The notes below the pieces were generated by a model. It saw nothing but the letters and a program-made list of their open reading frames with translations. It ran no database searches and was not told the origin of the DNA. Shown in pieces: positions 45,453-64,000 of a DNA stretch of 64,000 bases. This DNA comes from Flavobacterium cutihirudinis (GTDB taxonomy: Bacteria; Bacteroidota; Bacteroidia; Flavobacteriales; Flavobacteriaceae), in NCBI RefSeq assembly GCF_003385895.1, contig NZ_QRDQ01000012.1:124001-188000 (forward strand). The letters are read 5' to 3'. The position numbers and the translations under genes are program-made. Positions within the stretch are counted from its first letter, which is position 1. Every line of letters starts with the position of its first letter.

Positions 45453-46574
45453 TTAATTAAAAAAAGTTCTTACTACGTTTACAATTCTTATTTTATCAGC
45501 TTCAGTAAGATTTGACCCTGAAGGTAAGCAAAGTCCATTTTCAAATATTTTTTCAGCCACTTTATCACCATAATAAGGATATCTTTCAAAAATGGGCTGC
45601 ATATGCATTGGTTTCCAAATTGGACGTGTTTCAATGTTTTCTCTTTCAAAAGCTTGTAGTAAATCATTTTTAGCTTTACTTGATTTTAACAAAATCGTAT
45701 TCAACCAATAATTTGAAAAATAATCTTCATTTTTTGTTTCAAAAAGTTCTGCCTCTTCAACAGTAGAAAAAAGTTCTCGATAAAACAAATGATTGTTTCT
45801 TCTAGATTCTATTTTTTCTTTAAGAATTTTTATTTGCCCCAATCCAATGCCGGCACAAATATTACTCATTCTATAATTATAACCAATTTTGCTATGCTGA
45901 TAATGAATTGCATCATCTTTTGACTGAGTTGCATAGAAGATTGCTTTTTGTTTTAGAGCTTTTGAATTAGATACCAAAACTCCACCACTAGATGTTGTGA
46001 TTATTTTATTCCCGTTAAATGATAAGACCCCAAACTCCCCAAAAGCACCACATTTCTTTCCTTTATAAGAACTCCCTAATGCTTCGGCACTATCTTCAAT
46101 AATTGGAATTTCATAGCGGTCAGCAATAGCATGAATCTTATCTACGTTATATGGCATCCCATACAAGTGAACTGCTATTATTGCCTTTGGCTTTTTACCT
46201 TTTTTAATCCTATCTATTATCGCTATTTCAAGATTATTAGGACATATATTCCATGTTTCAGATTCACTATCAATAAAAACAGGAGTAGCGCCTTCATATA
46301 ATATCGGATTTGCAGATGCTGAAAATGTTAAACTCTGACAAATAATCTCATCACCTTGTTGAACTCCTAATAAAATTAACGACAAATGAATAGCAGATGT
46401 CCCTGAATTTAATGCTGTTACAAAGGAATATTCACCTAAATAACTCTCAAGTTCTAACTCAAAATCATCTACATTTGGTCCTCCCGACGTAATCCAATTA
46501 GACTGTAATGCTTTTTCGACAAATTCAATTTCGAAACCACTTTGTTGCGATAAGGATAAATAAATTCTATTCAT
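45453..46574 (-). CDS. DegT/DnrJ/EryC1/StrS-family sugar aminotransferase
   Basis: A PLP-dependent nucleotide-sugar aminotransferase of 373 residues. The PLP lysine is K190 in GVLSFNGNKI, the PLP-stacking acidic residue D161 is in IIEDSAEALGS, and LNSGTSAIHLSL binds the phosphate. The wording is that of C4 aminotransferases such as PglE/LegC, which act on UDP-4-keto-6-deoxy-GlcNAc. With the CapD-like dehydratase it could yield a UDP-4-amino-4,6-dideoxy sugar. No acetyltransferase of the PglD type lies next to it. It overlaps the cupin gene upstream by eight bases. Confidence 0.87.
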   Translation of the reverse strand: MNRIYLSLSQQSGFEIEFVEKALQSNWITSGGPNVDDFELELESYLGEYSFVTALNSGTSAIHLSLILLGVQQGDEIICQSLTFSASANPILYEGATPVFIDSESETWNICPNNLEIAIIDRIKKGKKPKAIIAVHLYGMPYNVDKIHAIADRYEIPIIEDSAEALGSSYKGKKCGAFGEFGVLSFNGNKIITTSSGGVLVSNSKALKQKAIFYATQSKDDAIHYQHSKIGYNYRMSNICAGIGLGQIKILKEKIESRRNNHLFYRELFSTVEEAELFETKNEDYFSNYWLNTILLKSSKAKNDLLQAFERENIETRPIWKPMHMQPIFERYPYYGDKVAEKIFENGLCLPSGSNLTEADKIRIVNVVRTFFN

Positions 46575-46992
46575 TTAATTCCCAATAATCAACAGGATAT
46601 CTAGTATCATCTTCTTTTACATTTGACAATGGTAAAGTAGAAAATGATATTAACTTCGAGTTTTTTTCTAATGATTCAACTGCATTTGCATATCCTGCAG
46701 GAATATAAACAATCTTGCTATCAAATTCAGATACTTCTACAGTTTCAATAGTTAAATCTTTGGAAGGATTTTCCCAACTATCAATTTTCACAAAATGGAT
46801 TTTAAAAGATCCACTTACACAATAAAAATTCTTTGAATCTAATTTATGCCCTTGCCAAGCCCGGATAGGGTTTTCATCTGAATTAGTTATAATATAAAAT
46901 CTTTCAATATTATTAAAACTAAAATCATTAACATATGAAATAGTCCCCCGTTGATCTGAAAAATTTCCTCCCTGAATTACTTCTGGACTCAT
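46567..46992 (-). CDS. WxcM-like cupin protein (possible sugar isomerase/epimerase)
   Basis: A single-domain 141-residue cupin related to the sugar 3,4-ketoisomerase/RmlC superfamily. SPEVIQGGNFSDQRGTISYV resembles the start of RmlC-like proteins, and the barrel continues through FYIITNSDENPIRAWQGHKL and YIPAGYANAVES. The GH pair in WQGHKL may be the active-site histidine. The protein is short of the standard RmlC motifs. It sits directly between the WecA-like and aminotransferase genes, overlapping both by a few bases, so a step on a keto-sugar is likely. The reaction is not known to me. Confidence 0.7.
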   Translation of the reverse strand: MSPEVIQGGNFSDQRGTISYVNDFSFNNIERFYIITNSDENPIRAWQGHKLDSKNFYCVSGSFKIHFVKIDSWENPSKDLTIETVEVSEFDSKIVYIPAGYANAVESLEKNSKLISFSTLPLSNVKEDDTRYPVDYWELNE

Positions 46993-60307: not shown

Positions 60308-61609
60308 TTATTTATTTACAATTTCCTTATTTATATAATCTAAAATATTTTGAGAAGCAGTTTTATTATTAGGTGGAAGACAGTTTTGATTTACAAACTC
60401 TTCTCTTTCACTTTTCATAAAATCTTTTTCTCCTATAACTACATTATCAATGAATTTTTTTATTTCAATATCATTAAAACCTAAATAATGCATTTTTAAA
60501 CATTCCTTACCAAAATCATTAAAATTGCAAAGAACATCAATACTCTTAACCGTAAACATTACTGGTTTATTTAACAATAGATATTCCGCAGTAAAAGAAC
60601 CACTATCATGAATTAGCGCATCCGAATATTGGAACAGTTCCGAATATCCTGAATCCACTATAAAAGTATTTTGCAATGTTCCCCAGACTTTAAAATAATC
60701 ATCCGTTTTAGATTTACCCCAACTTTCATTTTTATAGAGCTTAGATTTTAAAATAGGGTGGGGTTTAAATGCTATTTGGATCTTGTCGCTATAAGTTTTA
60801 GCAATATTAATCATAATAGATGCTAACTCAAAAAAAGATGAATAACCTAAGCCGGAATCATCTCCCGGAATGGTGTGATGAGGAGCCCAAATAATTTTTT
60901 TCAATTTCTTATCTCCAGAACTTGGCCATGGGCTAGCTTTAATTGCATTTTCTAAATAACTGTCTATTCCTGGATACCCCGTTACAACAATATTTGCTCC
61001 TTTAATAAATGAATACTTTTTTCCAATTTGTTTATGCTTTTCTGTTTCATAAAATTGTTTCCAAATTTTTGAATGAAACGGCTGATCAAATTGATCTTTA
61101 TACAAATTCGAAACTTGAAACGAATATGGGACATAACATGTCAAAGTATCTAAAAAATTATCAATATAATATATCTCCTTAGTAAGTTTATGTGGATTTG
61201 TAAAAAAAACGAGATCAGGTTTTATTTCATTCTTAACATCCATCCATTCTCCAGTTTTTTCATCAAAAGATTTAATAACTACATATCCTTTCTCTTTAAA
61301 ATTTTCGAAATTCTTATTCATTTCAAAAATCATATTTTTATCTCCATAAATCATATATGGGCATACAACCACAAGAGGATCATAACGATTATCATTTAGC
61401 ATTAAATTATATAAATAATCATATTTCCATACAGAGTCGTGAATCAAAAAGAAAACCACTTTTAATTTGTCCTTTCTGCGAACAATTTCAAGGGCCTTTC
61501 GATGCTTTCTAGGGGCATCTTTGATCAGATACAATTCACGCAACCTTATTAGCCCATTCAATATTTTAGGTGGAATATTTTTTTTAATGAATGATTTTAA
61601 TGCACTCAT
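60308..61609 (-). CDS. CDP-glycerol:glycerophosphotransferase family protein (TagF/TagB-like)
   Basis: A 433-residue GT-B type polyol-phosphate transferase. The C-terminal half carries [29 protein letters not shown] and [20 protein letters not shown], the histidine and serine-rich stretches that mark the Glyphos_transf family. Known members move glycerol phosphate from CDP-glycerol to teichoic acid or capsule. The TagD-like gene 1.8 kb downstream would provide CDP-glycerol, so a glycerol-phosphate side group on this Gram-negative glycan is inferred. It starts with a four-base overlap on the aminotransferase gene and lacks membrane segments. Confidence 0.87.
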
Positions 61610-62709
61610 ATTCTATTTAACAACTGAACAATTGTGTTTATATCTTGTTTTGTCATACCTGGCCATAATGGTAAACTAAGACAAGTCTCGGCCATATTTT
61701 CGGTAATTGGAAAATCTCCAACCCTATAGACTAGTGAAGAATAGGCCTCTTGCAAATGTGGAGGTATTGGATAATGAATTAAAGACTGTACTCTATTATC
61801 TGATAAATAAGATTGAACGTTGGCCCGATCTTGTACACTAATAACAAAAAGATGCCAAACATGTTCTTCATTTTGACCAAATTGAGGTAAAACTATTTTA
61901 TCATTTTTAATGTTGGCTAAATAATAGTTGGCTATTTCTTGACGACGATGATTTTCTTCATCAATATATTTTAGTTTTACACTTAAAAAAGCAGCCTGAA
62001 TCTCATCCATACGACTATTAAGTCCCTGGTATTGATTAACATATTTTTGTGCAGATCCATAATTAGCCAATGCTCGTATAATTTTGGCTAGATTTTCATC
62101 TTTTGTTGTTATAGCACCTGAATCACCAAGAGCTCCTAAATTTTTCCCTGGATAAAAACTGAATCCCGCCGCATCGCCAAGATTACCAGATCGAATTCCG
62201 TTCCATCTTGCACCAATGGCTTGCGCATTATCTTCGATAATCTTCAAATTATGTTTTTCAGCTAATCGCTTCAAATCATCGCTCCAGCATACTTTCCCGT
62301 ATAAATGCACGACCATTATAGCTTTTGTTTTTGAAGTAATTCTACTTTCTATACGGCTAATATCTAAATTATATGTTTCTGGATCAGGCTCAACTAAAAC
62401 TGGTTTTAACCTATTGTCTGTTATTGCTAAAAGTGAAGCAATATAAGTATTAGCAGGAACAATAATTTCGTCACCTTCCTTCATGTAGCCCAACTCAATG
62501 TAACCTTTCAAAATTAGTCGTAATGCGTCTAAACCATTCGCAACTGCAATAGCAAAACCGCCTTCCTGATAAGCAACTAAATCTTTTTCAAAATCATTAA
62601 CTCTGTCCCCAAGTAGGTACCAACCACTATCTATAACTTCTGAAGCAACTTGTTTCAACTCAGCTTCATACTTATTGTTTATTTTTTGTAAATCAAGAAA
62701 TTTAATCAT
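61606..62709 (-). CDS. dTDP-3-amino-3,6-dideoxyhexose aminotransferase (FdtB/QdtB-like)
   Basis: A PLP-dependent sugar aminotransferase of 367 residues. [20 protein letters not shown] is the typical start, K189 in [18 protein letters not shown] is the PLP lysine, and [11 protein letters not shown] holds the acidic residue (D160). This wording is that of the C3 aminotransferases (FdtB, QdtB, DesV group), which act on dTDP-3-keto-6-deoxy sugars. The neighbours fit: two FdtA-like cupins and a hexapeptide acetyltransferase upstream. The product would be dTDP-Fuc3N or dTDP-Qui3N, later acetylated. Confidence 0.9.
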
Positions 62710-62750: not shown

Positions 62751-63299
62751 TTACACTTTCACTAAGTGACCTTCAACTTCTATCCAACTTTCTCCAAAAT
62801 TATCTAAATAATAATCTTCGGATTTGCTCATTTTCGTACCATCTTCATTTACCCATCCAACAATTTTTCCTGGCGAACCAGTTACTAAAGCTCTAGCTGG
62901 AACATTTTTAGTAATTAATGTGCCTGCCCCAATTAAAGCATATTTACCTATTTCAATCCCACATAAAATTGTTGCTCCTGCGCCTATTGAAGCACCGTTT
63001 TTAACGGTGGTATATTCCATTTTATAATTTTGATTTTTAGATCTTGGCAATTTATCATTTGTAAAAGTAACATTTGGGCCAATCATTACGTCATTCTCAA
63101 TCGTGATACCATCCCAAACATATACTCCCGGTTTGATTGTTACGTTATTACCAATTATAACATTGTTTTCAATAAAGACATGACAATTTATGTTACAACC
63201 GCTTCCTATTTTAGCATTTTTCAAGATGATACTAAATTGCCAAACATATGTGTTTTCTCCAATATCGGCAGTTTGCACATCAGAAAGTGGATGTATCAT
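62751..63299 (-). CDS. Hexapeptide-repeat sugar acetyltransferase (FdtC/QdtC/WlbB-like)
   Basis: A left-handed beta-helix acyltransferase of 182 residues. Hexapeptide turns run from about residue 13 to 150 (for example IGENTYVWQFSIILKNAKIG and IGAGATILCGIEIGKYALIG). VTFTNDKLPRSK is the loop that carries the active-site Asn-Asp in N-acetyltransferases of the FdtC/WlbB group. The expected role is transfer of acetyl from acetyl-CoA to the 3-amino group made by the neighbouring aminotransferase. Its start overlaps the cupin gene upstream by 20 bases. The amino position (3 versus 4) is inferred from context. Confidence 0.87.
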   Translation of the reverse strand: MIHPLSDVQTADIGENTYVWQFSIILKNAKIGSGCNINCHVFIENNVIIGNNVTIKPGVYVWDGITIENDVMIGPNVTFTNDKLPRSKNQNYKMEYTTVKNGASIGAGATILCGIEIGKYALIGAGTLITKNVPARALVTGSPGKIVGWVNEDGTKMSKSEDYYLDNFGESWIEVEGHLVKV

Positions 63300-63705
63300 C
63301 TTTTCTATAATTTAAAAATTCGTTATAATCTCTCAAATAATCTTCTTCGGAATACATTGCCGAAGCCAAAACCAAACAAATACTTCCGCTTGAAAAATTT
63401 TTAATTTCCCTCCAAATACCAGGCCGTATATGCAATGCCTTTGATGGATCGTTTAAAAAAACTTCTTTTTTACAAATTCCATCATCCAATACAAAAGTAA
63501 ATGAACCGCTCAGCGCTACAATATATTGCTGTAATTCATAATGTCCATGTCCTCCTCTTTCTGATCCCATTGGAACATCATACAAATAATATACTCTCTT
63601 AACATCAAATGGTATTGTAATATTATTTTCAATGACAGTAATGTTACCTGCATTATTATGAATTTTAGGTAAGCTTACTATTTCACAATCATCTACCTTA
63701 TACAT
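63280..63705 (-). CDS. FdtA-like dTDP-4-keto sugar 3,4-ketoisomerase, copy 1
   Basis: A complete 141-residue cupin. YYLYDVPMGSERGGHGHYEL contains the conserved His pair (about H53 and H55) that in FdtA/QdtA ketoisomerases acts on dTDP-4-keto-6-deoxyglucose, and LQQYIVALSGSFTFVLDDG and YLRDYNEFLNYRK are typical FdtA stretches. It should convert the 4-keto to the 3-keto sugar for the aminotransferase. It overlaps the upstream copy by eight bases and the acetyltransferase by 20. Fuc versus Qui stereochemistry cannot be read with confidence. Confidence 0.86.
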   Translation of the reverse strand: MYKVDDCEIVSLPKIHNNAGNITVIENNITIPFDVKRVYYLYDVPMGSERGGHGHYELQQYIVALSGSFTFVLDDGICKKEVFLNDPSKALHIRPGIWREIKNFSSGSICLVLASAMYSEEDYLRDYNEFLNYRKDDTSTF

Positions 63706-64000
63706 TTTTAAGCTTTTTAAATTCTTCGAAGTCTCTCAAATAATCACTTTCATCATAGCCTTTATTCGAGATAATCAACGCAAGTGAATTTGTTGAAAAA
63801 TTTTCAAGCCTCCTCCAATACATTTTTGGTATATATAAACCATAGTAAGACCTATTTAGAGAAAACTTTGTTTCCTTTTCTCCATCATGAAGTATAACAT
63901 CAAAACTACCAGATATTGCTATAACAATTTCTTGTTGTTCTTTAAAAGCATGACTTCCTCTTATTTCGCCTCCCGGAACATCGTAAATCCAATAAGTTCT
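63698..64000 (-). CDS. FdtA-like cupin, copy 2 (C-terminal part, start outside the window)
   Basis: Reading the minus strand from 64000 gives RTYWIYDVPGGEIRGSHAFK and then an intact frame of 100 residues ending YLRDFEEFKKLKNV at the TAA at 63698-63700. The phrase order (YDVPGG, ISGSFDVILHDG, YLRDFEEF) is that of the neighbouring FdtA-like gene, so it is a tandem paralog. The second histidine of the HxH pair is Phe here (SHAF, compared with GHGH in copy 1), so its catalysis may differ. The N-terminus, about 40 residues, lies beyond 64000. Confidence 0.82.
   Translation of the reverse strand, partial: RTYWIYDVPGGEIRGSHAFKEQQEIVIAISGSFDVILHDGEKETKFSLNRSYYGLYIPKMYWRRLENFSTNSLALIISNKGYDESDYLRDFEEFKKLKNV

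Follow-up and report, generated by a model that had tools for sequence, protein, structure and literature searches.

FdtA from Aneurinibacillus thermoaerophilus (PDB 2PA7), a dTDP-4-keto-6-deoxyglucose 3,4-ketoisomerase, is the product of a single gene that carries Arg15, His49 and His51 together, and the same combination is present in the other characterised enzymes that we read, namely WlaRB, HCAN_0198 and FdtD. FdtA numbering is used throughout; the PDB entries titled H49N (2PAE) and H51N (2PAK), taken with the FdtA sequence, mark both histidines. In the excerpted text of PMC2943079, strands two and three are swapped in the FdtA dimer, His49 is the base, His51 is a possible proton shuttle and position 95 lies near the sugar C4′. 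For RmlC-type enzymes the excerpt of PMC9095892 has the TDP held by residues from both protomers, some of them on the swapped strand of the partner, and these would be F21, R25, F28 and E30 as we read its lost star signs. The excerpt of PMC7949155 describes the same strand addition, with the nucleotide at the dimer interface.

Several further members of the family are relevant here. QdtA from Thermoanaerobacterium thermosaccharolyticum (4O9E), also encoded by a single gene, has Tyr17 at position 15 (by the name of a mutant) and Arg at position 95 (R97), where FdtA has His. Campylobacter jejuni has two FdtA-family proteins in one organism, WlaRA (5TPV) and WlaRB (5TPU), which are titled as two separate ketoisomerases. 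FdtD from Shewanella denitrificans (4MZU) is a fused FdtA-family protein from the same kind of pathway, but its partner domain is an N-acetyltransferase and not a second FdtA domain. No tandem or heteromeric FdtA was found in the literature searched, which did not take in the main biochemical papers on the family.

Here we describe a locus in Flavobacterium cutihirudinis where Arg15 and His51, together in FdtA, are split over two adjacent genes, termed A and B. They lie at the end of the window, the whole 64,000-nucleotide stretch of contig NZ_QRDQ01000012.1 that was analysed. From comparison of sequences, A and B appear to be a two-gene ketoisomerase with split determinants, a variant of a known enzyme family and not a local oddity. 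In Pfam the two genes share a single ketoisomerase family, and either protein expressed alone may be dead, such that a wrong function would be assigned.

The overlapping genes and their cassette

The features are as follows, in window coordinates, all on the minus strand:

63698..64000, running on to window-equivalent 64096: gene A, an FdtA-family cupin of 132 amino acids (ORF read past the window end; PF05523)
63280..63705: gene B, an FdtA-family cupin of 141 amino acids (ORF; PF05523)
63698..63705: the 8-base overlap of the A end and the B start (ORF coordinates)
63950..63952 and 63944..63946: H49 and F51 of A, in the numbering of FdtA; Asp13 and Arg15 lie beyond the window end
63547..63549 and 63541..63543: B equivalents of H49 and H51, its own residues 53 and 55 (alignment)
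63649..63651: Ala of B, its own residue 19, at the position of A's Arg15 (alignment)
62751..63299: hexapeptide-repeat acyltransferase in an FdtC/QdtC-like place in the cassette, overlapping the B end by 20 bases (domain match)
61606..62709: DegT/DnrJ/EryC1 aminotransferase, FdtB-like (domain match)

The original prediction had described two tandem, overlapping FdtA-like paralogs, with GHGH in copy 1 (B) and SHAF at the same place in copy 2 (A), and this description holds. Both ORFs match PF05523 (A at 168.8 bits and B at 173.2 bits, with a cut-off of 23), they are 40% identical over the aligned part, and RGGHGH in B aligns with RGSHAF in A, the upstream gene of the two. The histidine missing from A is His51 of FdtA, with Phe in its place, while His49 is present in both proteins. 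At position 15 this genome has Arg in A and Ala in B. The prediction was thus right about the loss in copy 2, but did not notice the reciprocal loss, Arg15 to Ala, in copy 1. It had also called for copy 2 to be read beyond position 64000, and had named a pseudogene there as an outcome that would refute it; the full ORF of A proves to be uninterrupted from ATG to stop, which rules out pseudogene status. By descent A belongs to the family; the name ketoisomerase should not be applied to A by itself.

The likeness to FdtA extends from the residues themselves (His49 in A and B, His51 in B) to the cassette, with its FdtB-like and FdtC-like genes. Some 4.5 kb upstream of A, beyond the window, is an RmlB gene (dTDP-glucose 4,6-dehydratase), which scores 481 bits with TIGR01181 (cut-off 365). 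Window and flank thereby carry RmlB, a 3-aminotransferase and an N-acyltransferase beside A and B, which is the set for a dTDP-3-amino-3,6-dideoxyhexose pathway. Judged by its genes, the cassette is one for making a dTDP-3-acylamino-3,6-dideoxyhexose, in which two genes stand in for a single ketoisomerase gene. Between sugars of the Fuc3N and Qui3N type, Arg95, present in A and in the window's B, weakly suggests the C4′-retaining kind, by the rule given in the excerpted PMC2943079.

Related pairs have similar surroundings. By blastp within the fetched DNA, 72 of the 76 pair loci contain an FdtB relative, 39 a hexapeptide acyltransferase of the window's type and 37 an RmlB-like protein, this last count perhaps taking in other SDR enzymes. 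The remaining loci have other genes beside B, and in ten such loci several of these look acetyltransferase-like by eye. On this gene content the A/B pair belongs to 3-amino-sugar synthesis, and acyl groups probably vary among the pair cassettes.

Two observations concern other genes of this kind. A third, distant FdtA-like cupin lies in the window at 46567-46992 on the minus strand (21.7 bits against the PF05523 cut-off of 23) and adjoins another DegT-type aminotransferase. Three pair loci encode DegT-like proteins of ∼310 amino acids (L078:8801-9730, L112:9744-10688 and L120:9762-10691) without the PLP-lysine stretch of FdtB, whose SFYPGKN is replaced by SIPKFFPVQF, SFPKTFPLQV or SFPKFFPVQV; L078 and L112 additionally carry a normal-looking FdtB. 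Judged from sequence, such proteins may be a second pseudoenzyme subunit of this pathway.

Pairs across genomes and their reciprocal losses

With A as the query, 67 of 296 genomes from the phylum gave relatives; the adjacent pairs among them number 21, counting the window's own, and each is an A-B pair. One more pair came from a search of 299 genomes of the family, for 22 pairs read. When a B profile was run over the same 296 genomes, the B members of these pairs took the highest or nearly the highest ranks. Species genomes were scanned with an A alignment, which gave 551 confirmed loci, of which the best 80 were fetched; the scan patterns derive from A, so that A's own motif is partly selected, while B and its residues are not. 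Among these best 80 of 551 loci, B lies directly 3′ of A in 78, the other two being L069, at a contig end, and L123, a metagenome-assembled genome (MAG) with other genes after A. The order is A then B in all pairs. Three loci among the same 80 have natural A-B fusion ORFs, again with A first; L116 and L122 are from MAGs and L146 is from a Dysgonomonas isolate.

Several records were left out before counting: three pairs whose A domain exactly repeats that of another pair, the re-fetched copies L001, L002 and L036-L039, the loci L003 and L005, domain matches below 100 bits and, from the solitary set, L069 and L123. This leaves 97 distinct pairs, 75 with named records and 22 from the phylum and family searches. 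Of the 75, 72 are from Bacteroidota of several classes, and the other three are MAGs that carry the labels, as recorded, of Planctomycetota, Spirochaetota and Fibrobacterota, one for each phylum.

At position 51, B has His in all 97 pairs, while A has Phe in 67, Tyr in 29 and Lys in one. The conserved His that the prediction found gone from copy 2 is therefore gone from every A. Since the same His51 loss recurs in 97/97 distinct pairs, and in the upstream copy only, chance is excluded; a local oddity or a sequencing error is likewise ruled out by the 97 distinct pairs. Position 15 behaves in the opposite way, with Arg in all 96 readable A (one is truncated) and a residue other than Arg in 96 of the 97 B (Ala 49, Glu 19, Ser 12, Lys 7, Asn 4 and others). 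Asp13 is present in every readable A but one, which has Glu. The catalytic base His49 is kept in 97/97 A and 97/97 B. Position 103 is Asn in all 97 A, and in B is Gly in 96 and Ala in one. At position 95, A has lost Arg once, to Lys, and B has Arg in 50, Ala in 45 and Cys in two, a loss in 47 of 97. All 19 B proteins with Glu15 carry Ala95. The sole B that keeps Arg15 (L110:8407-8796) has Ser in place of Asp13.

The losses were also compared by region. A column was scored as lost when at least 94% conserved in the solitary rows, below 60% in one copy and at least 90% in the other. By this criterion A has lost seven columns, all in the barrel, and B has lost three in the arm and two in the barrel (V40 and R95). 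Column entropy, paired by genome, is higher in B than in A by a mean of 0.68 bit in the arm and 0.08 bit in the barrel. The comparison has a Mann-Whitney p of 0.022 for 96 pairs (leaving out L111, where A is cut off) and of 0.017 for 66 thinned pairs. In A itself the arm columns have an entropy of 0.87 bit, against 0.85 bit in solitary relatives.

A phylogenetic tree was built from 125 columns, without the trait columns, for 82 pairs and 34 solitary rows. All A fall on one side of a branch with SH-aLRT 95, and all B but one fall together; support is weak at 94 of the 195 inner branches. To give this pattern a single duplication would suffice, after which A and B were inherited jointly. The pair at L050 (G347) has Lys51 in A and Lys15 in B; its A branches early and its B groups with solitary rows, so that judged by its sequences it is perhaps an intermediate.

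These data bear on what A might be. A decaying duplicate would account for the loss of one catalytic His, but A has an intact ORF, forms one clade kept across the phylum and has an arm whose entropy equals that of solitary relatives; we regard this explanation as refuted by conservation and give it practically no weight. The pocket of A is near fixed (W36 in 96/97, S83 in 97/97, N103 in 97/97, and F/Y51), and its conservation in this form is more in keeping with a pocket that has been plugged or re-used than with simple decay. It could be that A acts as a homodimer and catalyses a different step on the same sugar, such as an epimerisation, using His49 and a re-made pocket of W36, F/Y51 and N103. 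Fixed and not drifting pocket residues would suit such an enzyme, as would the fold, which structural superposition finds to be common to the A model and RmlC-like epimerases. It would however give no reason for the strict adjacency with B, for the fusions or for the loss of Arg15 in B, and we consider it quite improbable.

The prediction had offered two readings of the pair, a division of labour with one copy as heteromer partner, or two isomeric products. The second would make A and B separate homodimeric ketoisomerases with two stereoisomeric 3-keto products. C. jejuni offers a precedent, in that the PDB titles of WlaRA and WlaRB name TDP-fucose and TDP-quinovose ketoisomerases, and A and B differ at positions 15 and 95, which are jointly changed in a QdtA mutant. 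Against this, His51 is absent from A in 97/97 pairs, and A occurs without B, among the best 80 of 551 loci, only at the contig end and at one further locus, while three loci have the two fused. A pair of FdtB-like aminotransferases within four genes downstream, moreover, occurs at one locus only, L087. Two enzymes with two products are thus the less likely of the prediction's readings and, in our view, a rather remote one; the heteromer partner is favoured by adjacency, order, the three fusions, a fusion model and the complementary losses.

Structure models and a putative A:B heterodimer

AlphaFold2 models A alone with pLDDT 94.5 and pTM 0.87. Against the 13 ketoisomerase entries listed, the model superposes over its full length with Z 20.6-21.6 and rmsd 1.3-1.7 Å. 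It lies in register on FdtA (2PA7), with model residues 2-132 on chain residues 2-132 and 131 residues aligned (Z 20.9, 1.7 Å). WlaRA and WlaRB superpose with Z 21.4 and 20.8, and QdtA, of the same fold and like A with Arg at position 95, with Z 21.2.

When A was aligned by profile with the RmlC encoded in the window, no useful match emerged, so the comparison of arms rests on structural superposition, of which we have first and last residues only, and on the papers. Superposed on the RmlC-type enzyme of Coxiella, the A model has its first residue at position 11 of that protein. Position 15 would then be R25 of that enzyme, if there is no early gap and if the excerpted PMC9095892 uses that numbering. 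In QdtA, position 15 is Tyr17, from the mutant name and an ungapped superposition with an offset of two, and the Y17R mutant of QdtA scores 27.9 bits versus 24.7 against the first 62 residues of A. In PDB 4ZU7, Tyr17 is mutated together with R97, which suggests an active-site position for residue 15.

The B-type domain was modelled as part of the L146 fusion, and comes from a relative of the window's B. AlphaFold2 gives this fusion a pTM of 0.86 over 291 residues, with residues 135-151 disordered and with three alignment rows over the B half. Arm strands run over residues 18-24 and 173-179 in the fusion, versus 18-19 in the window's A alone, an uncontrolled comparison of different proteins, and in the fusion model they look as if paired with the other domain. 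Among the 50 matches listed by Foldseek for the fusion, those with ketoisomerases are to single domains (TM 0.41-0.44 of the query) and are uninformative on the interface.

That A and B form a heteromer is likely, a view well supported, at the level of sequences and models, by near-obligate adjacency, fixed order, three fusions, confident packing of the fusion and complementary losses. The arrangement we favour is more specific. A and B, each as a subunit, would together make up one sugar 3,4-ketoisomerase, with dTDP-4-keto-6-deoxyglucose, the product of RmlB, as its substrate, in the step that precedes the FdtB-like aminotransferase and the acyltransferase. They would form a strand-swapped heterodimer like the homodimer of FdtA. 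The complete site would take His49 and His51 from the B barrel and Arg15, with Asp13 and Glu22, from the swapped N-terminal arm of A. The other site, made of the A barrel with F/Y51 and N103 and the B arm without Arg15, would not perform the ketoisomerase reaction. For the separate proteins we infer that they too heterodimerise, with the A arm reaching the B site and turnover at that site only. The residues lost, Arg15 in B and His51 in A, are those expected of unused half-sites.

We put the composite site at an even chance. The loss of Arg95 in 47/97 B counts against it, and needs explaining if B is the catalytic barrel. The full proposal, an A:B heterodimer with one working site, formed by the B barrel and the A arm, which makes the 3-keto intermediate of a 3-amino sugar, stands evenly poised for and against. 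The site on A may itself have a job, since its pocket is near fixed and not decaying, and the re-made pocket could also bind a second ligand. It is possible, if somewhat doubtful, that an obligate A:B dimer is the first heteromeric sugar 3,4-ketoisomerase, having arisen by one duplication and reciprocal loss (of the arm in B and of the pocket in A) and become common in aminosugar cassettes of Bacteroidota.

The trypanosome AdoMetDC prozyme and deoxyhypusine synthase are known cases of a duplicate without catalytic residues that partners an active copy, with folds and reactions unrelated to those of A and B. If the composite site is true, A and B would be a clear case of a homodimer becoming a heterodimer by loss of opposite half-sites, and the natural pairs, fusions and one-gene relatives make it directly testable. 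It would also help tell which Bacteroidota make 3-acylamino sugars for surface glycans.

Solitary relatives and the possible sufficiency of B

The solitary reference rows number 38, a set that leaves out L149-L219. Arg15 is present in 38/38; 37 have Arg15, His49 and His51 together, and the other is without His51. We considered these loci as one-gene versions of the cassette, which is mostly ruled out: 36 of the 38 have no FdtB relative in their flanks of 1.9-3.4 kb, the exceptions being L057 and L060. Such short flanks do miss some genes, since flanks of equal length at 22 pair loci have FdtB in 10 and the acyltransferase in 14. By eye, many solitary loci share glycosyltransferase-like neighbours. 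Close solitary matches in the phylum search list (n = 23) have Arg15 in 22 and His51 in all 23.

Further solitary relatives were read as a re-check. In two sets of 13 and 28 (41 in all, two of the 13 being also in the reference set), Arg15 is missing in 12 and His51 is kept in 39. Set by set, Arg15 is kept in 5/13, in 24/28 and, in a third set, in 1/2, so that with 8/13, 4/28 and 1/2 lacking it, a role for Arg15 that is essential family-wide is ruled out. The 12 without Arg15 look by eye like distant subfamilies. Distant solitary matches without His51 are L214, with Tyr and a broken frame, and L218, with Gly. The relative without Arg15 in the third set (L175, G544) is a close one, a solitary FdtA-type protein from the window's genus that has Leu15 and His51 and so resembles a B without A. 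The notion that no B-like protein occurs without A is accordingly not upheld.

The finding of L175 lowered our estimate for the composite site and raised that for B as a whole enzyme, either as a homodimer or within a heteromer, with A as a non-catalytic partner that stabilises it, regulates it or hands on its product and lends no residues to the B site. Because solitary relatives without Arg15 exist, the distant ones and the close one, B alone might be competent. His49 and His51 are in every B of the 97 pairs, and A is everywhere without His51, as such a division would have it. Left unexplained would be the invariant Arg15 of A, along with its Asp13, set beside a relaxation in B that touches the arm and scarcely the barrel. 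We judge a self-sufficient B to be unlikely, though deserving of some weight.

Three observations on solitary genes may be added. Of 299 genomes in the family to which the window belongs, 148 carry a match above the cut-off, and 29 of the 30 loci fetched are single copies, mostly amid glycosyltransferase-like genes and with no FdtB relative in the flanks. An ftsE-like gene lies near the solitary FdtA in L038 (8747-9142). Finally, L182:3542-4477 on the minus strand encodes a protein like FdtD, in which a hexapeptide acyltransferase is fused to a single FdtA domain with R15, H49 and H51; the gene adjoins an FdtB relative.
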